Assembly (NCBI GenBank): GCA_039803925.1
Contig: JBDRZL010000013.1
Coordinates: 1 to 58,308, forward strand
Length of the DNA: 58,308 bases
Reading direction: 5' to 3'
Source of the DNA: a candidate division WOR-3 bacterium
Lineage (GTDB): Bacteria; Hydrothermota; Hydrothermia; Hydrothermales; JAJRUZ01
Shown in pieces: positions 677-53,904 of this stretch (positions within the stretch are counted from its first letter, which is position 1; each line of letters starts with the position of its first letter). Below the pieces are notes generated by a model. That model had not been told where the DNA came from and ran no database searches. It was given only the letters and a program-made list of their open reading frames with translations. The position numbers were made by a program, and so were the translations under genes.

Positions 677-1117
677 TTAATCTTCAACTTCTATCCCTAA
701 TTTTTGAAGAAATTCTTTTGCATCTTCAAAATCTATTTCTACTCCTTTTTTTGTGTCTCTCAATCCTCTGTAATAACCTGCAATATGAATTTCATTATAT
801 AAACTTTCAAATCTTCTTTTTAACTTCCCATCTTTATGTAATAAATATTTATTTATACAATCTCTGTATCCATCAACACTTTGAGGAAGTTTTTCTTTGT
901 CTATTTTCCCTGTCTTTAATAATACATAATCAAGAGCCTTTAAAATAGAAAGCCATAAAGCTCCATAAGCCTCCTGAACATATTTTATTTCTTCATAATA
1001 TTCTCCCTCATCATCCAAAGGAGATTTATTTAATGTTTCTTTTGCATTTTTATACAACTTTATTGCCTCTTCTTTTATTTTCTCTATTTCTTCTGGATTT
1101 ATTTTTAAATTTTCCAT
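677..1117 (-). CDS. DUF5618-like small helical protein
   Basis: This 146-residue, mostly helical soluble protein has no signal peptide. The pattern YYEEIKYVQEAYGALW, a central ALDYVLLKTGK, and IHIAGYYRGLRDTKKG resembles the DUF5618 family as I remember it, whose helical layout recalls HEPN-like proteins. The function is unknown. It stands alone between a dead transposon and a gene-poor stretch, which would suit an accessory gene. There is no Shine-Dalgarno sequence; TATAAT lies at 1124-1129 (minus strand), 6 nt before the ATG, suggesting a leaderless mRNA. If the HEPN likeness is real it might be half of a toxin-antitoxin pair, but no nucleotidyltransferase partner is next to it. Confidence 0.7.
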   Translation of the reverse strand: MENLKINPEEIEKIKEEAIKLYKNAKETLNKSPLDDEGEYYEEIKYVQEAYGALWLSILKALDYVLLKTGKIDKEKLPQSVDGYRDCINKYLLHKDGKLKRRFESLYNEIHIAGYYRGLRDTKKGVEIDFEDAKEFLQKLGIEVED

Positions 1118-1129
1118 ACTTATATTATA

Positions 1130-1745
1130 ATTCTTTTCAACATTTTTTGCAGATTTTCTTCAAATCCTATAATTGCTTTTATCCCTTTCCCAAAATCTTT
1201 TATTCTGAATATTTCAAAATTTTCTACCGGAACTATTAAAATCTATGATAATTTGAAAAAATTGAGATAAAATGGTGCTTACATGGTAATCACATTTTTG
1301 AGGTTTTTTTATCTAATTTACAGTTGATTAGTATATAAGTGATAAAGGGAACATAAAAAAGTTGAAATTTAAAAACTTTATGTTAATAAGTGTTGTTATT
1401 AAAGGATTGGTTATATAAGTATTTTAGGTTTAGAGGTATCGTTATGTTTGGGCTTTTGGTAAGTTTGTATCTGGTTTATTTCCTCGTCAGTGTGATTTAG
1501 TTGTTATTAATAATGTTTCATTTAGGTTGGAATTATTATTCTGGTATGGTGGCCTATGGGTTATAAAAGATTATTATGAAGTTTTACGATTCCTCTTGAT
1601 AGGTTATATGATTTATTGAATAATGGCAGTGATTTAGTTTGGGAGAATGAAAGTAAGTTTTATTTATTCTGGCGTGATTTACTTTTTCTATCTGATTTAT
1701 TTGTATTTGTTGAAAATTAAACTCATATAAAATTATAATAAAAAA
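1130..1745. other. gene-poor stretch, possibly with a gene relic
   Basis: No convincing gene lies between the DUF5618-like gene and the riboswitch. Around 1590-1722 the plus strand has a short open stretch reading RLYDLLNNGSDLVWENESK then FLSDLFVFVEN before a stop. Its composition looks protein-like, but it has no start and stops abound upstream. It may be the tail of a decayed gene. Its family is not recognised. Confidence 0.35.
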
Positions 1746-1750
1746 TAAAG

Positions 1751-1943
1751 GCTGGGTGCCGGGAAGTGGGTGAAAATCCCACACTGCCCCCGCAACCGTG
1801 AGGGACCGGAAAAGAGGTGTTTTCGGGGCTTTTGCCCGCCACTGGGAAATAAGGGTCTTTGCCTATCTTTTAGGCGAAGGCTTTTTTCCTGGGAAGGTGG
1901 AAAGCTCCTCTATGAAGGTCCCAAGTCGGGAGACCGACCCAGC
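1751..1943 (+). ncRNA. cobalamin (B12) riboswitch
   Basis: The conserved landmarks of the cobalamin aptamer appear in order. Closing stem P1 pairs GCTGGGT (1751-1757) with ACCCAGC (1937-1943). The GGGTGAAAATCCCACACTGCCCCCGC core follows at about 1769, GCCACTGGGAAA at 1838, GGGAAGGTGGAAAG at about 1890, and the B12 box AAGTCGGGAGACCGACC at 1923-1939. Downstream, a 9-bp hairpin AATATTCCC/GGGAATATT (1979-2001) ends 3 nt before the Shine-Dalgarno AAGGAGG (2005-2011) of the receptor gene, which suggests control of translation initiation. A rho-independent terminator is not apparent. The expected logic is that adenosyl- or another cobalamin shuts off the uptake genes that follow. Confidence 0.95.
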
Positions 1944-1978
1944 TTTCAATTGCCCCGGGGTGGTGGGCTTTAAAGGGT

Positions 1979-2011
1979 AATATTCCCGACCGGGGAATAT
2001 TTAAAAGGAGG
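1979..2011 (+). promoter_or_regulatory. riboswitch expression platform: hairpin plus Shine-Dalgarno
   Basis: A perfect 9-bp hairpin (AATATTCCC at 1979-1987, GGGAATATT at 1993-2001, loop GACCG) lies just before AAGGAGG (2005-2011) and the GTG start at 2018. No U-tract follows, so it is not a terminator. Its GACCG loop could pair with an aptamer loop, as in known class-I cobalamin riboswitches, but the pairing partner was not worked out. Confidence 0.6.
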
Positions 2012-2017
2012 TTTTTT

Positions 2018-3763: not shown

Positions 3764-4508
3764 TTTAATTTTATTATTCGGGTTCGAGCCCCGAATCATT
3801 TCCCTTGCTCCAAGTATTACTGATTTTCTTATTAAATTGAATCTTGAAAATTTAATTGTTGGAAAAACATATCTTGACCCTGATTTTATAAAGGCTGAAG
3901 TTGTTTTACCCTCTTCAATGAAAATTTCAAAGGAAAAAATTTTGAGTTTAAAACCAACTCATATTATCTCTGCAGGTTTAATTCCAGAAGAGGAGTTATA
4001 TTACTTTAAAAAAAACGGTATAAAAGTTTTAGATTTTAAATATGAAAGTATTTTTAGTCTTATTGAAACCTACATAGTTCTTGGCAAAGAATTTGAAATA
4101 GAAAAAAAAGCCTTAAATGAATTAAAAAGTTTTCTTGATACCTTATTTTTATTTAAAAATATAAAGAATAATAAAAAAGTTTTATTCATTCTTGATTTAA
4201 CAAACGGAGTATGGTGTCCTGGGGAAAAAACCTTTATAGATGACTTAATTGAATGGACAGGATTTGATAATATATCTGATTTTTTTGAAGGTTATAAAAT
4301 TGTATCAATTGAAAAAATTTTAAAAGAAGAACCTGATATTGTGATATTTAATTTTAAAAAGGGATATGAGGCTTTAAAAAATACACCTTTTAGAAATTTA
4401 AAATCAATAAGAGAAAAAAAATTTTATGAAGTTCCTGACCCAAATTATTTTTCAAGACCTTCTCCGCTTCTAATAAGAGCTCTAAAATTTCTTTCTAAAA
4501 TTGAATAA
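3738..4508 (+). CDS. btuF: periplasmic corrinoid-binding protein (BtuF-like)
   Basis: This is an ABC-transporter substrate-binding protein of the helical-backbone type (class III). A short signal sequence (MFLLNQIFSLILLFGF) precedes the diagnostic PRIISLAPSITDFLIKL. Further motifs are LKPTHIISAG, NGVWCPGEKTFIDDLIEWTG and EPDIVIFNF, usual for BtuF/FhuD relatives. The start at 3738 is preferred over an upstream in-frame ATG at 3696: AGAAGGAGA sits 6-13 nt before it and it gives a sensible signal peptide. The gene still overlaps the receptor gene by 26 bp. It should deliver corrinoid to the BtuC-like permease encoded next. There is no lipobox, so it is probably soluble in the periplasm. Confidence 0.9.
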   Translation: MFLLNQIFSLILLFGFEPRIISLAPSITDFLIKLNLENLIVGKTYLDPDFIKAEVVLPSSMKISKEKILSLKPTHIISAGLIPEEELYYFKKNGIKVLDFKYESIFSLIETYIVLGKEFEIEKKALNELKSFLDTLFLFKNIKNNKKVLFILDLTNGVWCPGEKTFIDDLIEWTGFDNISDFFEGYKIVSIEKILKEEPDIVIFNFKKGYEALKNTPFRNLKSIREKKFYEVPDPNYFSRPSPLLIRALKFLSKIE

Positions 4509-6422: not shown

Positions 6423-6430
6423 AGGTTAAA

Positions 6431-6460
6431 ATTTTAAAAAAAATCTTTTTTATTTTTCAA
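6431..6460 (-). promoter_or_regulatory. promoter of the DapB-like gene (leaderless type)
   Basis: On the minus strand TTGAAA (6455-6460) and TAAAAT (6431-6436) are separated by 18 bp. The -10 box ends 8 nt before the ATG at 6422, and no Shine-Dalgarno sequence is present. Confidence 0.6.
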
Positions 6461-6485
6461 AACTTCTTTCTTATAATAAAAAGTT

Positions 6486-8189: not shown

Positions 8190-8191
8190 TT

Positions 8192-8686: not shown

Positions 8687-8720
8687 ATCAAATTATATAC
8701 TATAACTTTTAATTTTAAGT

Positions 8721-9135: not shown

Positions 9136-9220
9136 GCCGGGGTGGCGGAATTTGGAAGACGCGCCGCCTTCAGGAGGCGGTAGGCTCAAGCCTGTGCGGG
9201 TTCAAGTCCCGCCTCCGGCA
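9136..9220 (+). tRNA. tRNA-Leu (anticodon CAG)
   Basis: A class II tRNA with acceptor stem GCCGGGG/CTCCGGC, anticodon stem CCGCC-TTCAGGA-GGCGG (anticodon CAG), a long variable arm and a T-arm GCGGGTTCAAGTCCCGC. Discriminator A is at 9220 and CCA is not encoded. All stems are strongly GC-rich. It lies 6 nt after tmRNA and 12 nt before the next gene. Confidence 0.96.
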
Positions 9221-9232
9221 CAAATATTTTGA

Positions 9233-10093
9233 TTGATAAATTTTTTAATTTTTCTTTTAATAAAAAGAAAGATTATTTTTTTTCTTAATATTCAAAACCA
9301 GTTTCTAAAAACAGAGGATATAAAAATCTATATAGCAATACCTGAAAATGTTTATTATCAAAAAATTCTTGATATAAAATTTAACCCTCAACCTGATTCA
9401 ATTTTAAAAGAAGAGTGGGGTCAAAATCTTGCCCTTTTTAAAATTAAAAATATGGAACCCTATGAAGAAAAATCCTTTAAAATGGAAATTAATGCTATTT
9501 TTGATTTTAAAAATAAAATAAATTTTTATAACAAAAATATGGAAAATAATTTAGAAATATATCTCAGAGATGACCCTTATCTATGTATGAACTCTGACAT
9601 TTTAAAAAAAATAGCCTTTAATATAAAGAAAAGAACGAAGGATGATTTAGATTATATAAAAGGGGTTCTTGACACAATTTCAAAATCCCTTTTTTATAGT
9701 GTTGATAGATCCTGGCAAAATGCTGAAAAAACTTTCCTTCAGGGACATGGTTCCTGTTCTGAGTACTCCTTTTTATTTTCTTCCTTAATGAGACTTGGTG
9801 GTTTTCCAACAAGATTTGTCGGTGGAACTATGGAAAGAACGGGGGGAATAGATTTAACCTTTCACAGATGGGTTGAAGTTTTTTTAAAAGATAAAGGATG
9901 GATACCTGTTGATGCTCAATATTATGATTCCCCAGAAAGTAATGGTAAATTTTTCCCGGATGATGAGAGGTTATTTCTTGTAACAACAGTAACTCCTTCT
10001 ACAAGTTCTTTGCTTGATGAATGGTATAATTTTAATGTAAAAGTAAAAAAAGGTATAATAAAAGTTGATGCTTTTTTTAAATGGGAAAAATGA
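9233..10093 (+). CDS. transglutaminase-like (cysteine protease fold) protein
   Basis: This 286-residue protein has a C-terminal transglutaminase-like core with an intact triad: Cys175 (GHGSCSEYS), His211 (FHRWVEVF) and Asp227 (PVDAQ). The LMRLGGFPTRFVGG between them is standard for the superfamily, whose bacterial members are often peptidases or amidases. The N-terminus (MINFLIFLLIKRKIIFFL) could be a signal anchor, and residues 25-110 resemble an Ig-like domain, so an envelope location is likely. The start is TTG at 9233, 12 nt after tRNA-Leu, with no Shine-Dalgarno sequence; the exact start is uncertain. It overlaps the following HD-GYP gene by 13 bp. Confidence 0.82.
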   Translation: MINFLIFLLIKRKIIFFLNIQNQFLKTEDIKIYIAIPENVYYQKILDIKFNPQPDSILKEEWGQNLALFKIKNMEPYEEKSFKMEINAIFDFKNKINFYNKNMENNLEIYLRDDPYLCMNSDILKKIAFNIKKRTKDDLDYIKGVLDTISKSLFYSVDRSWQNAEKTFLQGHGSCSEYSFLFSSLMRLGGFPTRFVGGTMERTGGIDLTFHRWVEVFLKDKGWIPVDAQYYDSPESNGKFFPDDERLFLVTTVTPSTSSLLDEWYNFNVKVKKGIIKVDAFFKWEK

Positions 10094-11433
10094 AAAAAAT
10101 AAAAAGAATTTTTGTTTCTAAAAATGGAAATATAATAAGTGATTTTGATGAGGCTCAAAATATTTTGACTGAAATAAGAGAAGGTAAAAATTTTTTAGTT
10201 ATAGATAATGTTAGATATTTTGTTAGAAAGTATGATATTAGAGAAACTCAAGGTCATTTATACCTTTTAAAGACTGATAATAAAAGTATTAAAGATAAAG
10301 ATATATACTATCATTTAACTGATCTTTTAATAAGTAAATATTTTGATGATATAGAGTTTTTAAAAAATAAAATAGAACTTTTAAGCAAAACCGGAGAATT
10401 CTTTGCAGAAATTATTAATATAGAAGAAATAATAAAGAGGATCATAAGAGAAATAAAAAGGGTTTTAAAAGTTGAAATAGTTTCAATTTTTAAAGTAGAC
10501 GAAAAAGATAAAAAAATTTCCTTTTATGAATTCACAAAGGGAAAAAAAGAGCTGAAATCAATAGAAATTGAATGGGGTAAAGGTATTGTGGGTTATGTAG
10601 CTATACATAAAACTCCTTTGATTGTAAATGATGTATCAAAAGATAAAAGATTTTATCCTGAAGTGGATAGGAAAACAGGTTTTAAGACAAAAAATTTAAT
10701 TGCTTATCCTTTAATAGTTCAAAAGAAGATAATAGGTGTAATTGAAGTAATAAACAAAAGAAATGGATTATTTACAAATAGAGACCTTGAGATTATTTCC
10801 CTGATTTCTTCTTCAGCATCCGTTGCATTACAGAATGCTTTTTTATACAGGGAACTTGATGAATTATTTAAAGGAACAATAACATCCCTTGCAAATTCTG
10901 TTGAAGCAAAGGATCCATATACCTCAGGTCATGTTAATAGAGTTACAGAACTTTCTGTTGAGATTGGTAAAAGGATAGGTTTAAAGGGAGAAGATTTGAG
11001 GACTTGTGAACTCGCAGCAATTTTACATGATATTGGTAAAATAGCTATCCCTGATAGTATATTAAAAAAACCAGATAAACTAACAGAAGAGGAATTTGAG
11101 ATAATGAAAACACATGTTTATCACGGCGCAAGGATTTTAAATCCTATTCCTGGTATGAAAAATGTAATTCCTGCTGTTTTGCATCATCATGAAAGATGGG
11201 ATGGAAAAGGTTATCCCATGGGTTTAAAAGGGAAGGAAATTCCTTTAATAGCAAGAATAATAACAATTACAGATTCCTTTGATGCAATGAATTCTGATAG
11301 ACCTTACAGAAAAAGGCTTGCCCCAGAGGTTATAGAGAAAGAGTTGAGAGAAAAATCGGGTTTTCAATTTGACCCTGAGTTAGTTGATGTTTTTCTTGAA
11401 ATTGAAGAGGTAAAAGAGTTATTAAATAAATGA
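10081..11433 (+). CDS. GAF / HD-GYP cyclic-di-GMP phosphodiesterase
   Basis: This 450-residue signalling protein has three parts. Residues 1-105 form an N-terminal domain I do not recognise. About 106-255 is a GAF sensor domain (GIVGYVAIHKTPLIVNDVSKD, IAYPLIVQKKIIGVIEV, SSASVALQNAFLYREL). About 265-450 is the HD-GYP catalytic domain, with HDIGK at 316-320 and HHERWDGKGYP at 369-379, plus DSFDAMNSDRPYR. All metal-ligand and GYP motifs are present, so hydrolysis of c-di-GMP is expected. There are no membrane segments. The 5' end overlaps the transglutaminase gene; a second ATG three codons in is a possible start. The stop codon is 1 nt before tRNA-Leu(TAG). Confidence 0.93.
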   Translation: MGKMKKIKRIFVSKNGNIISDFDEAQNILTEIREGKNFLVIDNVRYFVRKYDIRETQGHLYLLKTDNKSIKDKDIYYHLTDLLISKYFDDIEFLKNKIELLSKTGEFFAEIINIEEIIKRIIREIKRVLKVEIVSIFKVDEKDKKISFYEFTKGKKELKSIEIEWGKGIVGYVAIHKTPLIVNDVSKDKRFYPEVDRKTGFKTKNLIAYPLIVQKKIIGVIEVINKRNGLFTNRDLEIISLISSSASVALQNAFLYRELDELFKGTITSLANSVEAKDPYTSGHVNRVTELSVEIGKRIGLKGEDLRTCELAAILHDIGKIAIPDSILKKPDKLTEEEFEIMKTHVYHGARILNPIPGMKNVIPAVLHHHERWDGKGYPMGLKGKEIPLIARIITITDSFDAMNSDRPYRKRLAPEVIEKELREKSGFQFDPELVDVFLEIEEVKELLNK

Positions 11434-11434: not shown

Positions 11435-11516
11435 GCGAGGGTGGCGGAACTGGCAGACGCGTCAGATTTAGGATCTGATGGGGAGACCCGTGCGGGTTCG
11501 AGTCCCGCCCCTCGCA
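11435..11516 (+). tRNA. tRNA-Leu (anticodon TAG)
   Basis: A class II tRNA: acceptor GCGAGGG/CCCTCGC, anticodon stem TCAGA-TTTAGGA-TCTGA (anticodon TAG), long variable arm, T-arm GCGGGTTCGAGTCCCGC, discriminator A, no encoded CCA. It starts 1 nt after the HD-GYP stop codon, so it must be cut from a shared transcript or have a promoter inside that gene. Confidence 0.96.
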
Positions 11517-11543
11517 CTCTTTTTTATAAATTTACATAAAATA

Positions 11544-13085: not shown

Positions 13086-14669
13086 ATGATAGAATTAATA
13101 ATTTTAACTCAAGTATTGAGAAGCACATCAATTTTAGAATTACCTACGGCAAATCTTCCAAGGGATCAAATTTTCTGGCAAATAGGTACATCTACTTCTT
13201 TTTCTCTTGCATCAAAATATGACCTCCATCCCACTGATTTTGATTTAAATGGTTTTGTTTCCTTTAATGGGAAATGGTTTTTAGGACTGAATATATTTAC
13301 CTTAAATGAAATTTCCTTTGACCTTGGTTCAATTTTAATTTCTGAGGGAGAAAAATCTCCTTTGGGTCTTTCCTTTGGCTTAAGGAATATATCATGGAAA
13401 AAGTATATTTCTTCTGTTGGTGGAGAGCCTGAAAAGGGAGGTGGATTTACTGACGATAATTCCTATATTTTGAGAAGTCCCGAATTATTATCCTTTTACG
13501 GTGTTTTATCAAAACATATAAATCCGTCCCTTCTCCTTCACCTTGGATTTGGTAGAGGTGAATTTATAGGTTACGGTCCGAGAAGCAAATTTTTGAATAC
13601 TGATTTTTTCTTAAAAACTCCCCATGAATATTTTACCTTTGGTCTCTTTGGAACCCTTGAATTTCACCTTACCCCCTCTTTATACTTAGCTCTTGAAGCT
13701 GATGGAAGGGATATCAATCTTGGTTTTTTAATTGATGTTGAAAAATTTAAATTTGTTATTGAAGGTCAAAAAATAGAACACTTTATGTTTAGTGGTTACC
13801 CAAAATTTCAACCAAGATTTAATGCAGGATTGGCTATTACAAGCAGGGTTATTATTCCTGAAGTTCGTCCGGTCCTTGTAAAATTTGAAATAGTAAATAA
13901 GGAAACAAAAAATCTTGTTAAAGGTGCTGTTATAAAATTTTTACAGACAGAAATCCCCAGTCTCATAACTGATGAGAAAGGATTTGCTTATTTAAATATT
14001 CTTCCTGGGACTTATATTATATCTATAACTCATCCTGAATTTAAAGTTCTGAAAGCTAAATTAAATATAAGAAAGGATAAGCCTATCTTTGCTAAAATTG
14101 CTCTTGAACCAAAAGTAAGTAAAAAAGACATAGCTGCTCAGAAGATTAAGGAAGGTGATGCTCTCTTAAAAGAAGAGAAATTACTTGAAGCAATGAATGC
14201 TTATAAAGAGGCACTTAATATCTATCCAGAAAGCAAAACAGCTCAGGAAAGACTTTTGAATGTTGAAAGAGCAATAAAGAATAAAATACTCGAACTTAAA
14301 TCAAAGGCTAAATACTTTGAAGGAAAAGGAGACTATAAAAGTGCTTTAAGTTATTATAATGATGTTTTAAAAATTTCACCTGAGGATATAGAGGCAAAAG
14401 ATAAGATTACAGAGCTTGAAAAGAAAATTAAAGAGACAGTACCACCATTATCAGAGAAAAAAGTTGAAACTAAAAAGGAGGAACCCAAAAGACCCTCAAA
14501 AGCACAGATTGAAAACACATTAAATAAGGCCATCCAAGAATTTGGGAAAGGTAATTACAAAGAAGCAAAGAAATTATTACAGGAAGTTCTTAAATGGGAG
14601 CCCGGTAATCAAAAAGCTCAGGAATATTTAAAGAAAACTGAAGCAAGACTTAAGGCTTTAGGAGAGTAA
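13086..14669 (+). CDS. outer-membrane-type barrel with Ig-like and TPR domains
   Basis: This 527-residue envelope protein is a composite. After a short signal-like start, residues about 20-258 look like amphipathic beta strands of a barrel (alternating FSLASKYDL, FVSFNGKWFLGLNIF, LLLHLGFGRGEF, LYLALEADG). About 262-342 is a carboxypeptidase-regulatory/PEGA-like beta domain (LVKGAVIKFL, LITDEKGFAYLNILPGTYIISITHPEF). About 345-527 carries TPR-like helical repeats (EGDALLKEEKLLEAMNAYKEALNIYPES, YFEGKGDYKSALSYYNDVLKISPED, AIQEFGKGNYKEAKKLLQEVLKWEPG). The TPRs would face the periplasm. No exact family is recognised. It has its own promoter and a Shine-Dalgarno sequence; RfbC follows 9 nt after its stop. 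Confidence 0.75.
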   Translation: MIELIILTQVLRSTSILELPTANLPRDQIFWQIGTSTSFSLASKYDLHPTDFDLNGFVSFNGKWFLGLNIFTLNEISFDLGSILISEGEKSPLGLSFGLRNISWKKYISSVGGEPEKGGGFTDDNSYILRSPELLSFYGVLSKHINPSLLLHLGFGRGEFIGYGPRSKFLNTDFFLKTPHEYFTFGLFGTLEFHLTPSLYLALEADGRDINLGFLIDVEKFKFVIEGQKIEHFMFSGYPKFQPRFNAGLAITSRVIIPEVRPVLVKFEIVNKETKNLVKGAVIKFLQTEIPSLITDEKGFAYLNILPGTYIISITHPEFKVLKAKLNIRKDKPIFAKIALEPKVSKKDIAAQKIKEGDALLKEEKLLEAMNAYKEALNIYPESKTAQERLLNVERAIKNKILELKSKAKYFEGKGDYKSALSYYNDVLKISPEDIEAKDKITELEKKIKETVPPLSEKKVETKKEEPKRPSKAQIENTLNKAIQEFGKGNYKEAKKLLQEVLKWEPGNQKAQEYLKKTEARLKALGE

Positions 14670-14678
14670 AATTTCAAA

Positions 14679-24759: not shown

Positions 24760-24784
24760 GATTATTTTTCATTTTATAAAGGAA

Positions 24785-24814
24785 TTGAACCTTTTTAAAA
24801 AATTTCATTAAAAT
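24785..24814 (+). promoter_or_regulatory. dapA promoter (leaderless type)
   Basis: TTGAAC (24785-24790), an 18-bp spacer and TAAAAT (24809-24814), ending 6 nt before the dapA ATG. There is no Shine-Dalgarno sequence, so transcription should start at or next to the start codon. Confidence 0.65.
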
Positions 24815-24820: not shown

Positions 24821-25720
24821 ATGAATGATAAAATAAAAGGAGAAATATGTGCAATTGTTACACCCTTTAAAAGGGATAAAATTGACCTTGATTCTTTCGG
24901 AAAACTGTTAGATTTACATATGGAAAGAGAAACTGATGGAATAGTTATTCTTGGAACAACAGGTGAATCCCCAACAGTAGATAAAGAAGAAAGAAAGGAA
25001 CTTTTAAATTTTGCTAAGGAAAAAATAAAAAATAAAATGAAATTAATAGCAGGTGTTGGGACAAATGATGGAAAGAAAACACTTCTTTATTCTGAAATGG
25101 CTCTTGATATTGGTATTAATTATCATCTTGTTGTAATTCCCTATTATAACAAACCCACTCAGAGTAACCTTATTGATTACTTTGTTTTTCTTGCAAAAAA
25201 TACAGGTGCGAAGATCATAATTTACAATGTTCCTGGAAGGACAGGTGTAAATATTTTACCTGAAACTATTTTAAAAATTTATGAAAAGGTTCCTGAAAAT
25301 ATTGCAGGAATTAAAGAGGCATCAAAGAATCTTGATCAGATGATGGATCTCGCTAAATTATTTAAGGGTAAAATCTCTCTTCTTTCAGGAGATGATTCCT
25401 GGACTTTTCCACTTTTATCCCTTGGTTATGAGGGAATTATTTCTGTTTATTCAAATATTAATCCAGGTTATTTAAAAAAGATGATCAATCTTTTTGAAAA
25501 GGGTAATATAGAGGAGGCAAGAAAGATGCATTTTGATGCTTTACCTTTGATGAATGCTTTATTTATTGAAACAAATCCCTTACCTGTTAAAACTTTACTT
25601 TCATATCTTGGCTGGATTGAGGAGGAATTTAGATTTCCTCTTGGAAAAATGGGTGAAGAAAATAAAAAGAAGTTAATTGATATTGCAAGTAAATATAATT
25701 TGCCAAAAGCAAATTTTTAG
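24821..25720 (+). CDS. dapA: 4-hydroxy-tetrahydrodipicolinate synthase
   Basis: A 299-residue TIM-barrel aldolase of standard length. It has GTTGESPTVDKEER, the YNVPGRTGVN loop with the catalytic Tyr, and the Schiff-base Lys165 (IAGIKEASKN), followed by LLSGDDSWTFPLLSLG. It condenses pyruvate with aspartate semialdehyde, the first step of lysine/diaminopimelate synthesis. No other dap gene is adjacent, although a DapB-like enzyme lies at 5424-6422. It has no Shine-Dalgarno sequence and a leaderless-type promoter. Paralogues such as N-acetylneuraminate lyase cannot be fully excluded, but all residues fit DapA. Confidence 0.96.
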   Translation: MNDKIKGEICAIVTPFKRDKIDLDSFGKLLDLHMERETDGIVILGTTGESPTVDKEERKELLNFAKEKIKNKMKLIAGVGTNDGKKTLLYSEMALDIGINYHLVVIPYYNKPTQSNLIDYFVFLAKNTGAKIIIYNVPGRTGVNILPETILKIYEKVPENIAGIKEASKNLDQMMDLAKLFKGKISLLSGDDSWTFPLLSLGYEGIISVYSNINPGYLKKMINLFEKGNIEEARKMHFDALPLMNALFIETNPLPVKTLLSYLGWIEEEFRFPLGKMGEENKKKLIDIASKYNLPKANF

Positions 25721-25728
25721 TTTAAAAT
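25700..25728 (+). promoter_or_regulatory. promoter of the secreted propeller gene (leaderless type)
   Basis: TTGCCA (25700-25705), 17-bp spacer and TAAAAT (25723-25728), overlapping the end of dapA. The -10 box ends 6 nt before the ATG at 25735 and no Shine-Dalgarno sequence is present. Confidence 0.6.
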
Positions 25729-30399: not shown

Positions 30400-30441
30400 A
30401 TTATATTTTATATTTTTCTTCTGGTTTACTTAAAATAAATT

Positions 30442-32437: not shown

Positions 32438-32467
32438 TTGAAAAAATATTTTAAAGAAACTTAAAAT
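32438..32467 (+). promoter_or_regulatory. promoter of the transketolase genes (leaderless type)
   Basis: TTGAAA (32438-32443), 18-bp spacer, TAAAAT (32462-32467), 7 nt to the ATG at 32475. No Shine-Dalgarno sequence is present. Confidence 0.65.
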
Positions 32468-34299: not shown

Positions 34300-34372
34300 G
34301 GGGCCGTAGCTCAGCTGGGAGAGCGGCAGGCTGGCAGTCTGCAGGTCGTGGGTTCAAATCCCACCGGCTCCA
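34300..34372 (+). tRNA. tRNA-Ala (anticodon GGC)
   Basis: A class I tRNA: acceptor GGGGCCG/CGGCTCC with one G-U pair, D-arm GCTCAGCTGGGAGAGC, anticodon stem-loop GCAGG-CTGGCAG-TCTGC (anticodon GGC), T-arm GTGGGTTCAAATCCCAC, discriminator A, no encoded CCA. The next gene's ATG is only 10 nt after the 3' end. Confidence 0.96.
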
Positions 34373-38109: not shown

Positions 38110-38186
38110 TTTTAAAAATTATATTTTACAAGGATTAGAACCAATAAAATTATTTTATTTTATTTTATTCAAATTTTACAAATTAC

Positions 38187-41200: not shown

Positions 41201-43355
41201 AGTTTTTATTTTAACCTGGCAAAATCCCTATGATCCAACAGGTATTGTAAAGGCTCTATACAAATTAGGTTCAAGACCGCAGAGTAATTATGATACCACA
41301 GGTTCTTTAAGAGGTAATCCTCCTGACACAGTATATACAAAAGTTCAGGGTGGAGTTAAACTTTATATGTGGCTTGTTAATGGTTTAGGAAATCTTGATT
41401 ATCACAATATTGATTCTGTTCTTTTGAGATATGACCCAATTCCACCCCAGGGAGCCACTGCAAGTACACCTTTATACTCTATAAATGATACACTTATTGT
41501 TACCTGGACTTCTGGTGAGGATTTTGGTGGAGCAGGAATTAAGGGATATGATGTTTATTACAAGGATGGAGAAGGTCAGTGGAATTTACTTATAGGTGAT
41601 ATAAATTCCCTTTCTTATATTTTTATTGGTCAGCATGGTCACAAATACTTTTTTGAAGTAGTTTCAAAGGATTCAGCAGGTAATGTGGAAGTTCAGACTT
41701 TTATTCCAGAGGATTCTGTAATTTTTGACCTTGTTCCCCCTAATATCACTTCAATAATTCCATCTCATGGTTCCTCCAATGTTCCATATAATACTGATAT
41801 AAAAATAAGTTTTTCAGAAAAATTAAATAGAAGAACTGTTGCCGATACAAACTTTGAAATTAGAGGCAAAAGGAGTGGTTTTCATACTTTTAATTTAACT
41901 TATGATTCTACAAATTTTGTTATAACTCTTGATCCTCATACTGGGTTTTCTTCACATGAAACAGTTTTTGTTAGTGTTTCTCAGAATATAACTGATGTTG
42001 CGGGAAACAGATTGGCTGGACAAAGAATTTTCTTTTTTATAACAGAATTGAGACCTGATACAGAGGGTCCTGTTTCAATTGCTTCCATAAATCCAGTTTC
42101 TCCAGAACCTTTTAATTATCTTGATATAAATGTTATAGTTTCGGATACAGGAAGAGGTAATTCAATTATAACTTATGCTGAGTTTTTCATTGATTCAATA
42201 GGTCAGAATGGATCTGGAATTTTCCTTGATCCTTCTGATGGAAATTTTGATGAAAATTTTGAAGAAGTTTATAAGAAAATTGATTTAGTTCCTTTAAATT
42301 TCAAAGCAGGTGAAACCCATTATATTTTTGTTCATGCTAAGGACATAAATAACAATTTTGGTAAATTCGATACAATAAAGTTTGTTATATCACCTGATGA
42401 TGATACATTACCTCCTTCTTTTATTGGATTTACACAGGGATATATTAATCCCAATACCAACTTCTATATAAAGGGAGTAATTCAGGATCCTTCAGGAGTT
42501 TATGATGATAGCACAGGTTCTTTAGGCCAGGGAGTTTATCTCCTTTGGGATAATGATGGTGAAATTGATAATACTTTTAATGAGCTAAAATTAGACAGAA
42601 CCTTTGGTGACACTTTCAGAACTCTTATACAGATACCAGGTCAGGATTCAGGTGAAATAGTTTATAAAGTTTATTCCCATGATAATGATTTTGATACAGG
42701 GCATCCAGCTGACAGAAAAAAAGGTGAAAGTCCGCTTTATAGGGTTATTTTTTATATTCCCATGATGGTAAATCTTACCCATTCACCTGATATTGTTTAC
42801 ATTGGAGACAGTTTAAAGGTAGAAGTTTCTGCAAATATTTCCTTTGGAGAGTCACCAGTTTGTAGTCTTATAACTTCTAAAGGTAGTTTGAAGTTAGAAC
42901 TTCCACTTTTTGAAATTAGTGGTAATTTATACAGGGGTAAAATAATTACTGAAGGAGCTGATATTGGAATAGCACGGATTGTTGCACATTATAAGGATTA
43001 TGGAACTCCAAAGAAAATTGAGGATTCAGTATTAATTCAAGCTAAAGGTGAGTTTTTACCTGAGAATACGGTTTATTTATGGCCGAATCCTGCCAGTTCT
43101 GAGGGTAATTTCCATTTTTACATAAATCAGAATGCAAAGGTTCAAGTTGAAATTTTTGATATAAGAGGTAAGAAAATTATGGAATCATCTGGTATTTTCA
43201 AAGGAGGTGTTAAGCCTCATACGATAAATTCAAATGCTATAAAATTAAATCTTAGAAATCTTGCTCCAGGAGTTTATATTTTCAGATTAAAGGCAGATGC
43301 AATTGATACAAAAGAAAGTAAAACAGTTTTGAAGAAATTTGCAATAGTGAGGTAA
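38244..43355 (+). CDS. giant secreted modular protein: propeller, four tandem FN3-type modules, sorting tail
   Basis: A 1703-residue exported protein. After a signal peptide (about 1-20), residues about 24-360 hold seven repeats of 42-50 residues (VGKYTSIKIDNQNRYYISYYD...GDLKFAYYDG) fitting a seven-bladed propeller. Residues about 363-1162 hold four near-identical about 200-residue modules, each with an APLNLTANG-PSPW start and a second fibronectin-III-like half (YYFEVISVDSAGNKE). A Big_5-like Ig domain (about 1165-1270), further beta domains and a C-terminal sorting domain (about 1603-1703: VYLWPNPASSEGN ... IFDIRGKKI ... LAPGVYIFRL ... KKFAIVR) follow. It is likely an adhesin or surface-layer component. 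The PorV-like gene starts 3 bp after the stop. Confidence 0.88.
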   Translation: MNRIYKIFWYFMLFSSLNGLTWQTQVVDATGNVGKYTSIKIDNQNRYYISYYDSTNGDLKFAYYDGSIWKIETVDGLLSDVGKWSSISLDLNNRPHISYYDVSNRDLKYAYYNGLFWVIETVDNIGNVGQFTSIYVDQNGIPHISYFDNTNTALKYAYKPTSSWIIETVDNSANVGRYTSIIVDENGKVHISYNDQTNNALKYATGNYGNWQIQTIVNNQYGSFTSISLDNNNYPFISHRKYGGQGSEGLYLHFFNGNTWQSRGIDLPGGGSLNGRWTSIKYDKTSRNVWISYYNGDNGDLKVAYSFDYPNYNTFNVLTIDTTGDVGMSSSLALTTYGTPVIGYYDATNQDLKIAELRDVDPPSAPLNLTANGDNPSPWNNTGIFELNWVNPQDESGIKRALYKLYLAPTSNFDTTGTLKANSPDTVQINTEGIVPLYLWLQDNAGNLNYNNYSVVYLRYDISKPINSKTKINIKFSNTSTYTISWTKGNDLGNPPSGIMGYNVYYRDGNGPWTLWLSNHPDTQEIFTGLDGHTYFFEVTSLDSAYNEEIGSFLPEDTLSFDLTPPSAPQNLYANGSSPSPWTNNSQFIITWVEPSDFSGIRKRFFKLGSPPNSSFDTTGTFHKSPDTVTISSEGIIDLYLWFEDSASNVNHNNRGNVKLRYDITKPLNSSVKIPEKSTNQINYIINWSRGSDNLSGIKFYELYYKVKGGTWNLYQSNITDTFISFNFSITDTFYYFEVISVDSAGNKEILTGFAEDSIFVDFKAPSPPLNLLANGSNPSPWTNINRFIITWTEPYDISGIRNRFYKLNSPPFNPYDTTSSFHRSPDTLSVDQEGIIPLYLWLSDSLGNISHNNSSSCNLRYDKTKPLNATCNIIESSTNQSVFPVKWTKGSDNLSGIIHYELYYRVKNSSWILYADSIVDTFINFQASLYDTFYYFEVISVDSAGNKEVLMGIPEDSIYVGNIVPLPPQNILANGSNPSPWTKDTVFILTWQNPYDPTGIVKALYKLGSRPQSNYDTTGSLRGNPPDTVYTKVQGGVKLYMWLVNGLGNLDYHNIDSVLLRYDPIPPQGATASTPLYSINDTLIVTWTSGEDFGGAGIKGYDVYYKDGEGQWNLLIGDINSLSYIFIGQHGHKYFFEVVSKDSAGNVEVQTFIPEDSVIFDLVPPNITSIIPSHGSSNVPYNTDIKISFSEKLNRRTVADTNFEIRGKRSGFHTFNLTYDSTNFVITLDPHTGFSSHETVFVSVSQNITDVAGNRLAGQRIFFFITELRPDTEGPVSIASINPVSPEPFNYLDINVIVSDTGRGNSIITYAEFFIDSIGQNGSGIFLDPSDGNFDENFEEVYKKIDLVPLNFKAGETHYIFVHAKDINNNFGKFDTIKFVISPDDDTLPPSFIGFTQGYINPNTNFYIKGVIQDPSGVYDDSTGSLGQGVYLLWDNDGEIDNTFNELKLDRTFGDTFRTLIQIPGQDSGEIVYKVYSHDNDFDTGHPADRKKGESPLYRVIFYIPMMVNLTHSPDIVYIGDSLKVEVSANISFGESPVCSLITSKGSLKLELPLFEISGNLYRGKIITEGADIGIARIVAHYKDYGTPKKIEDSVLIQAKGEFLPENTVYLWPNPASSEGNFHFYINQNAKVQVEIFDIRGKKIMESSGIFKGGVKPHTINSNAIKLNLRNLAPGVYIFRLKADAIDTKESKTVLKKFAIVR
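38300..39320 (+). repeat. seven in-frame propeller repeats
   Basis: Seven repeats of about 42-50 codons. The core is a VG(R/K)(Y/F)TSI.VD.NG..HISYYD..N.ALKYAY pattern ending in W.IETVD. The first four are the most alike; the fifth to seventh are diverged, as expected for an old propeller with recent copying in its first blades. Confidence 0.8.
39331..41730 (+). repeat. four tandem copies of a 600-bp coding module
   Basis: Copies start near 39331, 39931, 40534 and 41137, each about 600 bp (about 200 residues). They share NGS.PSPWT, DTTG(T/S), the SPDTV and EGI(I/V).LYLWL motifs, LRYD..KP, and FYYFEV.S.DSAGN.E. Copies 2 and 3 are closest to each other (both carry SSTNQ/KSTNQ and SDNLSGI). The length and reading frame show tandem duplication within a gene, not a mobile repeat. 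Confidence 0.85.
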
Positions 43356-46733: not shown

Positions 46734-47167
46734 TTTAATTCTTTTAGTTTTTCTCCTTCATATTTAAATCTTTCTTTACTAGATATCTTATGAATTTTAA
46801 TATCAACAACCTTAAGGTCCATCATATCTTCTTTTAACCAGAAATCTATATCAAGTATTGTTTCCCCGTCTGCTGATATAAAATCGGAACACATAAAATA
46901 CCTTCCATCACTTAGAACCCTAACTTCTTTATGAAGTCCTTTAAAATTCAGTCTCCATACTTGCTTAAGTTCTGTATCCCATATTAAAAAGTATCCTCCT
47001 TTGATTTTTGAATCTGTGTTTACATAATCGGTTATCGCCCTTTTTAGATCATCAGGTCTTATCTTTTCGAGCCTACCCGGATGCTCCCCTGGATGTTCTT
47101 GGGCTATTAAATTTAAAGAGATTAAACTTATTGAAATAAAAAAAATTAAATTTTTAAAAAATCTCAT
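46730..47167 (-). CDS. hypothetical exported protein with HPG repeat
   Basis: A 145-residue protein with signal peptide (FFKNLIFFISISLISLNLIAQ), then a mature start with the duplicated motif EHPGEHPG, and a compact domain (AITDYVNTDSKIKGGYFLIWDTELKQVW; KEVRVLSDGRYFMCSDFISADGETILDIDFWL). The family was not recognised. It lies first in an operon with thiol peroxidase, behind a promoter with an operator-like palindrome. The His residues near the N-terminus could bind metal or heme, which is speculation. Shine-Dalgarno GGGAG precedes the ATG. Confidence 0.75.
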   Translation of the reverse strand: MRFFKNLIFFISISLISLNLIAQEHPGEHPGRLEKIRPDDLKRAITDYVNTDSKIKGGYFLIWDTELKQVWRLNFKGLHKEVRVLSDGRYFMCSDFISADGETILDIDFWLKEDMMDLKVVDIKIHKISSKERFKYEGEKLKELK

Positions 47168-47182
47168 GATAGCTCCCTTTAT

Positions 47183-47207
47183 TAAATCAGGGTTAGAACC
47201 TGATTTA
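47183..47207. promoter_or_regulatory. operator-like palindrome in the tpx operon leader
   Basis: TAAATCAGG (47183-47191) and CCTGATTTA (47199-47207) form a perfect 9-bp inverted repeat with a 7-bp spacer. It begins directly after the -10 box, covering the expected transcription start, the position of a repressor operator. It could also form an RNA hairpin in the leader. Confidence 0.65.
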
Positions 47208-47208
47208 T

Positions 47209-47237
47209 ATTATAACATCCATTTATAATAATTGCAA
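47209..47237 (-). promoter_or_regulatory. promoter of the exported-protein/tpx operon
   Basis: On the minus strand TTGCAA (47232-47237), 17-bp spacer, TATAAT (47209-47214). Leader of about 35 nt with a Shine-Dalgarno sequence. Confidence 0.75.
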
Positions 47238-47270
47238 ATTTAGATTTTTTAAAAATATTTATTACTATTT

Positions 47271-47300
47271 TTGAAAAGAATTTTAAGAATAGTTTATAAT
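47271..47300 (+). promoter_or_regulatory. promoter of the transsulfuration genes (leaderless type)
   Basis: TTGAAA (47271-47276), 18-bp spacer, TATAAT (47295-47300), 7 nt to the ATG at 47308. No Shine-Dalgarno sequence is present. Confidence 0.7.
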
Positions 47301-47307
47301 TTTAAAA

Positions 47308-48279
47308 ATGAATATTAAAAAAAGTTTGTTAGAGCTTATTGGTAAAACTCCTCTTGTTGAACTCAGTGAAAGATTTAAGGGTGATATAAGGGCGAGAATA
47401 TTTTTAAAACTTGAATTTATGAATCCTGGAGGAAGTGTTAAGGATAGAATTGGGATAAAGATGATTGAGGAGGCGGAGAGAAGGGGTCTTATAAAAGAAG
47501 GTGCAACTATTATAGAGCCCACATCAGGAAATACAGGGGTTGGTCTTGCAATTGTTTGTGCAATAAAGGGTTATAAGATGATATTTACAATGCCTGATAA
47601 GGTAAGTAAAGAAAAGGAAATGCTCTTAAGAGCCTATGGTGCTGAAGTTATAAGGTGTCCGACAGATGTTCCTCCTGAGGATGAAAGAAGTTATTATAAA
47701 GTTGCAGAGAGATTAGCAAAGGAGATAGAAAATTCTTTTTTGCCCAATCAGTATGCAAATCCATTCAATCCCTTGGCCCATTATTTAACAACAGGACCTG
47801 AAATATGGGAGGATACAGATGGTAAAATTACTCATTTTGTCTGTGGAATTGGGACAGGTGGAACTATTACAGGTGTTACAAAATTTTTAAAAGAAAAAAA
47901 TCCCCGAATCAAAGTTATAGGAGTTGATCCAGAAGGCTCTATTTATCATGAATTATTTTATAATACTAAAGGTGAGATTCATCAGTATAAAGTGGAGGGT
48001 ATAGGGGAGGATTTTTTGCCTTCTACCTGTGATTTAAGTTTGATAGATGAGATTATAGTAGTTGATGATAAATCTTCATTTGAAACAGCAAGGAGACTTG
48101 CAAGAATAGAGGGAATATTAGCTGGAGGCTCATCAGGTTCAGCAGTATTTGCAAGCTTGAAGTTAGCAAAAGATCTTGATGAAAATTCAATTATTGTTGT
48201 AATTTTACCTGATACAGGTAGAAATTATCTTTCAAAATTTTATAACGATGAATGGATGAAAAAGGAGAAATTTTTATGA
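47308..48279 (+). CDS. cysteine synthase / cystathionine beta-synthase family enzyme
   Basis: A 323-residue PLP enzyme of fold type II. It has IGKTPLVELSERF, the PLP Lys45 in PGGSVKDRIG, the substrate loop EPTSGNTGVGLA, the phosphate-binding GTGGTITG and C-terminal GGSSGSAV. Size fits catalytic-core-only CBS or CysK/CysM. Directly followed by a cystathionine gamma-lyase/synthase gene, which favours reverse transsulfuration (homocysteine to cysteine via cystathionine), but O-acetylserine sulfhydrylase activity is possible. It starts without a Shine-Dalgarno sequence; its stop overlaps the next ATG (ATGA). Confidence 0.92.
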   Translation: MNIKKSLLELIGKTPLVELSERFKGDIRARIFLKLEFMNPGGSVKDRIGIKMIEEAERRGLIKEGATIIEPTSGNTGVGLAIVCAIKGYKMIFTMPDKVSKEKEMLLRAYGAEVIRCPTDVPPEDERSYYKVAERLAKEIENSFLPNQYANPFNPLAHYLTTGPEIWEDTDGKITHFVCGIGTGGTITGVTKFLKEKNPRIKVIGVDPEGSIYHELFYNTKGEIHQYKVEGIGEDFLPSTCDLSLIDEIIVVDDKSSFETARRLARIEGILAGGSSGSAVFASLKLAKDLDENSIIVVILPDTGRNYLSKFYNDEWMKKEKFL

Positions 48280-51297: not shown

Positions 51298-51298
51298 T

Positions 51299-51574: not shown

Positions 51575-51585
51575 TTTTTCCTCCT

Positions 51586-51604
51586 TATACCTTATGGGGG
51601 TATA
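51586..51604. promoter_or_regulatory. CsoR/RcnR-type operator
   Basis: Inverted repeat TATACC (51586-51591) / GGTATA (51599-51604) around a G-tract (GGGGG at 51596-51600). On the coding strand it reads TATACCCCCATAAGGTATA, like known operators of CsoR/RcnR repressors. It lies between the -10 box and the repressor's Shine-Dalgarno sequence, so bound repressor would block its own promoter and that of the Zn/Cd pump. Confidence 0.75.
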
Positions 51605-51609
51605 GGGTA

Positions 51610-51638
51610 ATTATAATATAAAATTTTTAGATTTTCAA
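51610..51638 (-). promoter_or_regulatory. promoter of the repressor and Zn/Cd pump genes
   Basis: On the minus strand TTGAAA (51633-51638), 17-bp spacer, TATAAT (51610-51615). The -35 box lies in the last codons of copA, so the pair can be transcribed apart from copA. Confidence 0.75.
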
Positions 51639-53870
51639 AGAAGGTTTATATTTTTTTAGAAGCAGAGAGTTCGTTACAACTGATATAGAGCTTAAGGCCA
51701 TTGCTGCTGCTGACCATTCTGGTCTGAAAGGCACTCTAAATAATAAATAAAATAGTCCTGCTGCAAAGGGAATCAGTATTAAATTATAAATCAAAGCCCA
51801 GAATATATTCTGTTTTATTTTGTTTAAGGTTTTAATAGAAAGTTCCATTGCAATTATAACATCTCTTAAATCATCCCTTAAAAGCACTATATCACCACTT
51901 TCAATTGCTATATCAGTTCCAGAACCTAAAGCAATTCCTACATCCGCCTGTGTTAATGCAGGTGAATCATTTATACCATCTCCAATAAAAGCAACAATTT
52001 CTCCTTTTTTCTGAAGTTCCTTTACTTTCTCCCTTTTTTCATGGGGTAAAACTTCTGCTATTACATTATCAATAGAAAGTTTTCTCGCAACCGCTTCAGC
52101 AGATTTTTTTGTGTCACCTGTAATCATATAAACCTTTTTCTTCTTTTTTTTGAGATAGGAAATTATTTCTTTAGCATTTTCTTTTATTTTATCACTAACT
52201 GCTATTATCCCCTTTATTTTACCATCAATTGCTACTAAAAGCAGAGTTTTTGCCTCTTCTTCCAGTTTTTCTATTTCTTTTTCTATATGTTCATTTATTT
52301 CAATTTTTATCTCCCTTAAAAAATTTTTATTTCCAACATAAACTTCTTTTCCCTTGATTATTGCTCTTATACCTTTCCCAGGAAAGCTTTCAAATTTTTC
52401 AGGTTCTATTAAGTTTATTTTAATTTTTTCAGTGTAATTTAAAATAGATTTTGCAAGTGGATGCTCTGAATTTTTTTCAGCAGATGCAGCATAAAGTATA
52501 AGTTCTTCCTCCTTTATATTATTAAATGTTATAACACTTTCAACTTCTGGTTTTCCTTTTGTTAATGTTCCGGTTTTGTCAAAAATTATTGTATTAATTT
52601 TCTTTAAGGTTTCAAGAGCTTCACCATTTCTTATAAGTATTCCAAGTTCAGCACCTTTTCCTATTCCTGCAGTTATTGCAGTAGGAGTTGCGAGACCAAA
52701 AGCGCAGGGACAGGCTATGACAAGAACAGATATAAGAGATATAAAGGCAAATAGGGAGGGTGGCATTATATTAACATTTCCAAAAAATCTCCAGAAAATG
52801 TAAGAGAAAATTGCTATAATAAGGACAACAGGAATAAAATATATTACAATTCTGTCAGCAAGTTTTTGTACCTGTGGTTTTGTATACTGAGCTTCTTCAA
52901 CAAGTTTTATAACCTGTGAGAGGAATGTTTCTTTAAAATCTTTTGTAACAGTAATTTTTAAATAACCATTCTGATTTATAGTTCCACCTATAACTTCATC
53001 ACCTTTTTTCTTAAATTCAGGAATTGGTTCACCCCTTACCATTGATTCATCAAGGAAACTCTCTCCTTCTATTACAATTCCATCAGTTGGTATTTTTTCA
53101 CCAGGTTTAACTAACAAAATATCTCCTGGTTTAACTTCTTTTATTGGAATTTTTAACTCTTTACCATCTTTTAAAACCGTTGCCTCTTTTGGTCTTAAAT
53201 CTATAAGTTTTTTTATAGCTTCACCTGTTCTATTTTTTGCTAAATTTTCAAGGAGTCTTCCAAGGGTTAAAAAGGCTGCAAGGAGTACGCTCGCTTCATA
53301 AAAATTATAGTTTTCTGGAATAATTTTAAAAGTAGCAAGAAGGCTTGAAAAAAAGCTTGAGCCTATTCCGATAGCATACATAACATCCATATTTAAATCT
53401 TTATTTTTAATTCCATTTAAGGCTTTTTTAAAAATTGGACCCCCTACATATACCATAAGGGGAGCTGCTATTAATAACTGAAGGAAAAGTAAACCTTTAA
53501 AATTTTTGAAGTTTAGCCCCAAATATTCACCATACATTAAGAATAAAAGTAAAATTCCGCCACCAAATCCTATATAAACTCTTTTTTTAAGTTTATCTAT
53601 GTATTTCTTTTTTTCTTTTTCATCTATTTCATAACTTTCATCAGAGGAAATTCCGAGAAATTTATAACCTATATCATTAATTCTTTTTTTTATGTTATCT
53701 ATTTTTAAAAAATTTTCATCATAAGTAATTATTGCGCTTTCAGTTGCTAAATTTACATTAACATTCAAAATTCCCTTTAAGTTTTTTAAAGAGTTCTCTA
53801 CTCTCCTTACACAACTTGCACAGGTCATTCCACCAATTTTTATTTTTATTTGTTTTTTCTTATTTTCCAT
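51627..53870 (-). CDS. copA: Cu(I)-transporting P1B-type ATPase
   Basis: A 747-residue copper pump. It has an N-terminal heavy-metal-associated domain with GMTCASC, the CPC motif in IACPCAFGLATPTA, DKTGTLTKGKPEVE, the NSEHPLAKSI HP motif and GDGINDSPALTQADVG. The last two helices carry YNLILIPFAAG and MALSSISVVTNS, the Cu(I)-specific YN and MxxSS ligands. It expels Cu(I) from the cytoplasm. Start 53870 is preferred over an upstream ATG at 53975 since the protein then begins MENKKKQIKIKIGGMTC and the promoter TTGTAT (53899-53904), 17 bp, TAAAAT (53876-53881) ends 5 nt before it, a leaderless start. Confidence 0.95.
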   Translation of the reverse strand: MENKKKQIKIKIGGMTCASCVRRVENSLKNLKGILNVNVNLATESAIITYDENFLKIDNIKKRINDIGYKFLGISSDESYEIDEKEKKKYIDKLKKRVYIGFGGGILLLFLMYGEYLGLNFKNFKGLLFLQLLIAAPLMVYVGGPIFKKALNGIKNKDLNMDVMYAIGIGSSFFSSLLATFKIIPENYNFYEASVLLAAFLTLGRLLENLAKNRTGEAIKKLIDLRPKEATVLKDGKELKIPIKEVKPGDILLVKPGEKIPTDGIVIEGESFLDESMVRGEPIPEFKKKGDEVIGGTINQNGYLKITVTKDFKETFLSQVIKLVEEAQYTKPQVQKLADRIVIYFIPVVLIIAIFSYIFWRFFGNVNIMPPSLFAFISLISVLVIACPCAFGLATPTAITAGIGKGAELGILIRNGEALETLKKINTIIFDKTGTLTKGKPEVESVITFNNIKEEELILYAASAEKNSEHPLAKSILNYTEKIKINLIEPEKFESFPGKGIRAIIKGKEVYVGNKNFLREIKIEINEHIEKEIEKLEEEAKTLLLVAIDGKIKGIIAVSDKIKENAKEIISYLKKKKKKVYMITGDTKKSAEAVARKLSIDNVIAEVLPHEKREKVKELQKKGEIVAFIGDGINDSPALTQADVGIALGSGTDIAIESGDIVLLRDDLRDVIIAMELSIKTLNKIKQNIFWALIYNLILIPFAAGLFYLLFRVPFRPEWSAAAMALSSISVVTNSLLLKKYKPSLKI

Positions 53871-53875
53871 TTTAT

Positions 53876-53904
53876 ATTTTACCTTGATTATGCTTAAAAT
53901 ACAA
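53876..53904 (-). promoter_or_regulatory. copA promoter (leaderless type)
   Basis: On the minus strand TTGTAT (53899-53904), 17-bp spacer, TAAAAT (53876-53881), 5 nt before the ATG at 53870. It overlaps the divergent promoter of the SpoIID-domain gene. Confidence 0.65.

Follow-up and report, generated by a model that had tools for sequence, protein, structure and literature searches.

Where does the messenger of a gene begin when a promoter hexamer lies only a few nucleotides (nt) before its start codon? The question is raised by a 58,308 nt contig (JBDRZL010000013.1, contig C13, analysed as a whole and referred to here as the window) from a candidate division WOR-3 bacterium of the Hydrothermota (assembly GCA_039803925.1). 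A preliminary description of it listed thirteen starts with a -10 box, TATAAT or TAAAAT, 5-8 nt upstream of the ATG, and took this to mean that transcription starts at the ATG itself. The computational analysis reported here makes it highly probable, from sequence, that leaderless transcription units are numerous in this bacterium. The basis is the position of the hexamer, its pairing with a -35 box, the restriction of these starts to ATG in the study genome, the enrichment in genes that need a promoter and the conservation of the hexamers. Genes without the box include a putative third class, led by elements resembling the T-arm of transfer RNA (tRNA).

A promoter hexamer at a set distance from the ATG

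The study genome (G000) is assembled to 1.836 Mb in 29 contigs, is 96% complete and has a guanine plus cytosine (GC) content of 29%. Genes were predicted in 858 kilobases (kb), 47% of the genome, using a purpose-written caller that chooses starts by codon usage alone and ignores the upstream sequence; 737 genes were called and 38 dropped for having no neighbour or less than 60 nt upstream, leaving 699. A first sample of 458 kb held 379 genes with a known neighbour. Genes were classed as divergently oriented, co-directional with a gap of at least 40 nt, or co-directional with a gap below 40 nt, and the box was defined as TANAAT with 5-8 nt between it and the start codon; its 100 carriers among the 699 are termed peak genes. 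Divergently oriented genes need their own promoter.

Counted across the sampled 47%, the hexamer shows a peak at 5-8 nt, which is strongest in the divergently oriented genes. The box precedes 39 of 90 such genes in the 458 kb, compared to a mean of 4.07 and a maximum of 10 in 200 dinucleotide shuffles, so that the tighter-than-chance spacing claimed in the preliminary description holds. It is found in 9/70 co-directional genes with the wider gap (shuffles: mean 2.0, maximum 6), in 14/219 with the shorter gap (mean 4.6, maximum 11) and before 213 of 12,008 ATGs that were not called as starts. In the 858 kb the corresponding counts are 59/152 divergent genes, 12/130 and 29/417, and the hexamer lies 5, 6, 7 and 8 nt before the ATG in 15, 20, 14 and 10 of the divergent genes, respectively. 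The same pipeline detected the box in 0 of 39 genes from a 50 kb region of E. coli with 44 annotated genes.

As AT-rich DNA is full of TATAAT-like words, those near ATGs may simply have been picked out by chance. A+T makes up 79% of the 60 nt upstream of leading genes, words that differ from TATAAT by a single base are frequent at all distances, and chance fits single sites such as 14679. As a general account, however, AT-richness is refuted by the shuffles, by the confinement of the peak to 5-8 nt with -35 boxes in register, and by the comparison of genomes: the peak is also present in G021, which has 58% GC (8/16 divergent genes, with a background of 0.1 per four-base window), yet the box precedes 0/29 leading genes of G040, a 34% GC genome from another class of the phylum. 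We therefore consider chance scarcely credible.

The peak genes were selected by the -10 word only, and the -35 region was not used; TTGA is nevertheless located at a spacing of 17 (10 genes) or 18 (17 genes) in 27 of the 100, compared to 0-3 at every other spacing from 10 to 29. G000 and its sister genome G001 share 95.6% identity across the window, and between them twelve of the listed hexamers have 0 substitutions in 72 positions and the spacer plus discriminator 18 in 209 (P 0.009); site 30399 was left out of this count, and its alignment shows no change. In G003, from a different genus within the family, a box at a distance of 4-9 nt is present in 5/7 orthologues of box genes compared to 1/30 orthologues of other genes. 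These patterns support the view that the boxes behave as sigma-70 promoters.

The start codon is ATG in all 100 peak genes and in 491 of the 599 others (P 1.8e-8). Alternatively, the box could be a translation signal, an AU-rich site for the ribosome or for ribosomal protein S1, on transcripts that start further upstream. A near full-length match to the S1 model in G000 is in line with this, and S1 acts at U-rich sequences upstream of the Shine-Dalgarno (SD) sequence, according to the part of the source consulted (PMC5397173). Enrichment of the box where genes need a promoter, the TTGAA 17-18 nt upstream of it and the unchanged hexamers all argue the other way, making a translation signal very improbable. 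Loss of S1 was considered as the cause of the leaderless mode, and was rejected for G000 given its strong match. The S1 model matches with E 6e-75 or better in 36 of the 41 genomes of the wider comparison set, near full length in G000, G001 and G003, and weakly in five (G007, G017, G020, G023 and G026), where fragments or other S1-domain proteins are possible; the curated cut-off is passed by 0/41, and is missed also by 12 of 14 control genomes.

In the proposed mechanism, a sigma-70-type promoter would consist of a -35 TTGAA, a spacer of 17-18 and a -10 TATAAT or TAAAAT. RNA polymerase normally starts at the sixth to ninth base after the -10, and a hexamer 5-8 nt before the ATG makes its A the sixth to ninth base. 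The transcript would consequently have its first base at the A of the ATG, or one or two bases away, and the ribosome would initiate on a 5'-terminal AUG, the exact 5' end being predicted from the same spacing. Some operon-internal genes use SD sequences. The preliminary description had placed most other genes in operons with SD sequences or overlaps, and this is only half correct: among 388 box-free genes close behind a co-directional neighbour, 249 overlap or abut that neighbour and 135 have an SD-like word. The anti-SD sequence at the 3' end of the 16S ribosomal RNA is intact in G000.

The thirteen sites of the window

TANAAT was confirmed at all thirteen listed starts, and all six of the -35 boxes described are present, of TTG type and with a spacer of 17 or 18. 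On the minus strand, the -10 boxes are TATAAT at 1124..1129 (6 nt before ATG 1117), TAAAAT at 6431..6436 (8 nt before ATG 6422; -35 TTGAAA at 6455..6460, spacer 18), TATAAT at 8692..8697 (5 nt before ATG 8686), TAAAAT at 30405..30410 (5 nt before ATG 30399) and TAAAAT at 53876..53881 (5 nt before ATG 53870; -35 TTGTAT at 53899..53904, spacer 17). On the plus strand, TATAAT at 6472..6477 lies 8 nt before ATG 6486 and TAAAAT at 30431..30436 lies 5 nt before ATG 30442. The remaining four plus-strand boxes each have a -35: TAAAAT at 24809..24814 (6 nt before ATG 24821 of a DHDPS family gene; TTGAAC at 24785..24790, spacer 18, overlapping the T-arm-like element of the divergent gene), TAAAAT at 25723..25728 (6 nt before ATG 25735; TTGCCA at 25700..25705, spacer 17), TAAAAT at 32462..32467 (7 nt before ATG 32475; TTGAAA at 32438..32443, spacer 18) and TATAAT at 47295..47300 (7 nt before ATG 47308 of a PALP enzyme gene; TTGAAA at 47271..47276, spacer 18). 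The boxes at 24821 and 47308 are kept in G003.

The two other hexamers are doubtful as promoters: TAAAAT at 14667..14672 on the plus strand, 6 nt before ATG 14679, and TATAAT at 38118..38123 on the minus strand, 8 nt before ATG 38109. Leaderless transcription from the ATG is therefore the best reading for about eleven of the thirteen sites, and these two are probably not leaderless, for reasons given below.

Start modes in related genomes

The family was sampled through four members, and G004 is the nearest sampled relative outside it. In a 20-sequence RpoB tree, the class (six members) and a second class of the phylum (one member) group together (support 100/99), next to Latescibacterota, Gemmatimonadetes, KSB1, Calditrichaeota, Ignavibacteriae and Bacteroidota (support 90/88). 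Pooled gene calls on named phyla were poor, owing to mixed codon usage and short stretches, and were used for no claim.

Divergent genes were counted in 11-120 kb per relative. The box was found in 9/18 of them in G001, 5/12 in G003, 5/22 in G004, 5/14 in G011, 5/8 in G010, 3/20 in G022 and 2/10 in G014, and in none of those sampled in G024 (0/4), G008 (0/6), G013 (0/8), G007 (0/4) and G040 (0/10). The trait is thus widespread in the class, recurring in several of its families, and is independent of GC content; in other families it seems to be absent or rare. Single genes appear to change their start mode between families.

Several observations weigh against the leaderless reading. The excess of the box is smaller in co-directional than in divergent genes. 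SD-like words, which the preliminary description had found missing at these starts, are indeed present in 0/100 peak genes compared to 182/599 others, but this absence is partly forced because the SD and box search windows overlap. On the 50 kb of E. coli, the gene caller recovered 39 of the 44 annotated genes and placed the annotated start in 30 of the 39, and just over half of G000 lies outside the sample. Peak genes start with ATG in only 4/9 cases in G010, and in 17/19 in G021. Beyond the family, orthologues of box genes have the box in 0/3 cases in G004, 0/1 in G021/G024, 0/2 in G011 and 0/1 in G022, and it is present in two of four orthologues of close co-directional genes (G021/G024, G022). 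In the window, the TAA stop of the upstream gene lies inside the hexamer at 14679, a GGAG is present further upstream and the spacing is 2 nt shorter in G001. Site 38109 has a T-arm-like element at -33..-23, suggesting that its TATAAT may be part of an AU-rich leader, and in its G004 relative the box gives way to an SD-like sequence.

A variant that differs in degree only is that the leaders are very short (1-5 nt), with starts scattered around the A. Start selection by the polymerase is flexible, and the spread of the hexamer over all four distances fits such scatter; we regard this as possible, though on the doubtful side.

Genes led by T-arms

In upstream regions of G000 without the box, a recurring word, GGTTCNANNCC, corresponds to the tRNA T-arm. 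The 858 kb contain 65 intergenic copies, 35 in coding sequence and 22 in tRNA or transfer-messenger RNA genes; in the first 458 kb there are 38 intergenic copies, compared to 0.285 in shuffles that preserve base composition only. A same-strand start lies within 60 nt of 50 of the 65 intergenic copies (at 16-36 nt in 47), one has an antisense start only and 14 have neither. Seen from the genes, the word is located 14-40 nt before the start in 60 of 699, standing alone in 52 and within a tRNA gene in eight. The stand-alone hairpins, GGTTCNANYCC, are mostly 18-26 nt before the start, at about 22 nt. The word is near invariant, with no fixed-position single-base change above 6 and with T or C at position 9 in 60/60, and the T-loop consensus TTCNANY closed by GG/CC occurs 60 times in sense and five times in antisense orientation.

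Over whole genomes, GGTTCAANYCC occurs 156, 174, 114 and 204 times in the four sampled members of the family, compared to 41 in G004, which has 46 tRNA genes, and 11-45 in 36 other genomes; the reversed pattern occurs 0-4 times in the family and up to 15 times elsewhere. In G003 an open reading frame (ORF) starts 19-38 nt after 60 of 79 stand-alone elements. Of 63 T-arm-led genes of G003 (three of them tRNA-led), 17 were mapped to the sampled part of G000 (tblastn at E 1e-15, identity of 45% or more, match starting no more than 12 residues from the start), and an element or tRNA is present in all 17, at 17-28 nt and with diverged flanks.

Three stand-alone elements are found in the window, all on the minus strand: GGTTCAATTCC at 24781..24791, 21 nt before ATG 24759; GGTTCTAATCC at 38132..38142, 22 nt before ATG 38109; and GGTTCTAACCC at 47190..47200, 22 nt before ATG 47167 with an SD-like sequence in between. 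No gathering match to Rfam was obtained at these three, and the stretch 46900-47320 gave only noise up to E 10. Separately, GGTTCGAGCCC at 3781-3791, with complementary flanking bases, is a T-arm element 45 nt before the TTG called as start at 3837, and this gene start is doubtful.

Could the element be a DNA operator or part of a promoter instead of an RNA hairpin? The near-invariant core would suit a DNA site, a stem of three base pairs (bp) would be weak in a thermophile, and in one divergent pair of the window the element overlaps the partner's -35 (24781..24791 and 24785..24790). The organism is indeed probably heat-loving, as its 16S gene has 61.7% GC in so AT-rich a genome. Against a DNA site, covariation with all four Watson-Crick types is seen at the third stem pair in G003 and G000, which represent two genera: 64/79 elements of G003 are paired there (27.4 expected) and 42/53 of G000 (19.7 expected), with 0/10,000 permutations in each. 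The bias in orientation, the distance set from the start codon, the occurrence of real tRNA genes at the same spacing and the 16 of 52 stand-alone cases in gaps below 40 nt behind a co-directional upstream gene also speak for RNA. We consider a DNA site unlikely, and prefer the RNA reading because of the covariation and the orientation. The fourth pair is slightly raised in G003 only (43/79, 33.3 expected), and pairs 5-16 are near chance in G000 and G003, giving no clear acceptor-like stem.

An SD sequence follows 19 of 53 stand-alone elements; these are at 21-31 nt and the others at 16-36 nt, mostly 18-23. Thirty of the 60 T-arm-led genes were annotated and 27 have a Pfam match; many of these are housekeeping genes, encoding glutamine synthetase, GAPDH, FBPase, ribonucleotide reductase, Rho, DnaA, DNA polymerase III beta and PPDK. 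No difference from the other classes was visible in their codon usage.

Of the 23 tRNA genes sampled in G000, nine are followed by a same-strand start at 5-20 nt. Two tRNA-led genes lie in the window on the plus strand: tRNA-Ala (34300..34372), whose 3' end is 10 nt before ATG 34383, and tRNA-Leu (9136..9221), whose 3' end is 11 nt before the TTG called as start at 9233. A coding ORF starts 8-20 nt after 17 of 32 distinct tRNA genes examined in G001 (of 47), compared to 5 of 32 in G004 (of 46; P 0.003). TTG or GTG serves as the start codon in eight of the 17 G001 cases, some of which may therefore not be true starts. With a tRNA at 8-20 nt, the spacing from T-arm to start is about equal in tRNA-led and element-led genes. 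In two orthologue pairs, a tRNA gene in G000 is opposite an element in G003, and a swap between the two is likely; one of these G003 elements resembles what is left of a tRNA, and identity in the other pair is only 46%. A further tRNA-Leu (11435-11517) begins two bases after an HD-domain gene (10081-11433), and the longest ORF of the next gene starts inside it.

Possible roles of the T-arm class

A third start mode, confined to this family, is a reading that we hold to be evenly poised. A T-arm about 22 nt upstream, present either within a complete tRNA gene that lies 8-20 nt from the ORF or as a stand-alone T-loop hairpin with a 3-bp stem, may recruit the ribosome or a protein, or may mark cutting by a tRNA-processing enzyme that would leave a nearly leaderless message.

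Firstly, the element may serve as a signal for translation, placed upstream of the ribosome site, which fits the distance to the start, the copies in short co-directional gaps and the housekeeping functions. An inspection by eye alone showed no good pairing between the element and the 3' end of the 16S. Secondly, it may be a mark for cutting: a cut as in tRNA processed by RNase Z would leave leaders of about 10 nt. Each of the four family members has an RNase Z homologue with E 5e-34 or better, though none passes the curated cut-off; that of G000 is on contig C9 at 55345-56028, and the match in G004 is only 2e-9. Homologues at 7e-24 or better in G009, G014 and G040, which are outside the family and have no excess of the element, weaken the link. 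The family also has RNase P RNA. The element was rejected as an ordinary RNase Z substrate or mitochondrial-type t-element, there being no acceptor-like stem above chance, and this counts against cutting.

Thirdly, the element may be pseudouridylated at the second U by TruB, which is present and whose motif it fits. The longer form of the TruB/Pus4 motif is GUUCNANNC. As in TruB/Pus4 targets in mRNA, the element holds the motif in a hairpin; unlike their scattered sites, it stands at a set distance before 52/699 starts. Extra copies of TruB as a reader of the T-arm were rejected, with one match in 37 of 41 genomes, including one in each of the four family members, and none in four. In E. coli, the TruB target motif in mRNA is given as GUUC in the portion of the source consulted (PMC13062092).

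Further observations

Two other features of the window were recorded. A cobalamin riboswitch (1737-2018) precedes a TonB-dependent receptor gene with a GTG start and a strong SD sequence, and an ORF of 1703 amino acids (38244-43355) has internal repeats of about 65-68% identity at 38338-41245, detected as off-diagonal matches to the sister genome.

Discussion

Leaderless bacterial genes are already known, and the present genome would be a new case of them. A comparison of genes without SD sequences was made in 2017, according to the excerpt consulted (PMC5397173). Excerpts of Zhong 2025 (PMC12340547) and Zheng 2011 (PMC3160421) describe leaderless expression in Deinococcus-Thermus, which is similar in having a -10 hexamer that precedes the ORF by about 6-7 nt, a class with ribosome-binding sites in the same genome and a large share of genes. 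The hexamer there is given as TANNNT, whereas here it is TANAAT with a clear -35 TTGAA, and nearly a third of the genes of D. radiodurans are reported in these excerpts, compared to 100/699 sampled here (59/152 divergent). Leaderless genes of Actinobacteria likewise have a start-proximal -10 signal in a sizeable fraction of genes, but with TANNNT in high GC DNA and in an unrelated lineage, as stated in the excerpt of Zheng 2011 (PMC3160421). Compared to Deinococcus-Thermus, the study bacterium belongs to another phylum, is AT-rich and is probably thermophilic. Among the matches listed for leaderless starts in uncultured lineages, no report was tied to this lineage, which is weak evidence as the search was made without the lineage name.

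The T-arm-led class is the more novel part, and would make the starts of this genome unusual. In mitochondria, tRNA punctuation and t-elements are known: tRNAs lie directly before ORFs, their excision leaves leaderless or nearly leaderless messages, and tRNA-like pieces occur where a tRNA is missing. Here, in contrast, the setting is a bacterium, the T-loop sits on about 3 bp without an acceptor stem, and cleavage is only proposed. Among the matches listed in open papers, no T-arm-like mRNA leaders were described.

The findings would add a deep uncultured lineage, whose genomes keep ribosomal protein S1, to the bacteria that have leaderless starts as a main mode. As families with and without this mode stand side by side, its gain and loss could be traced within one class, and start codons in such genomes could be annotated from the position of the promoter. 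If confirmed, the leaders resembling a T-arm would represent a signal in mRNA that ties the structure of tRNA to gene starts.

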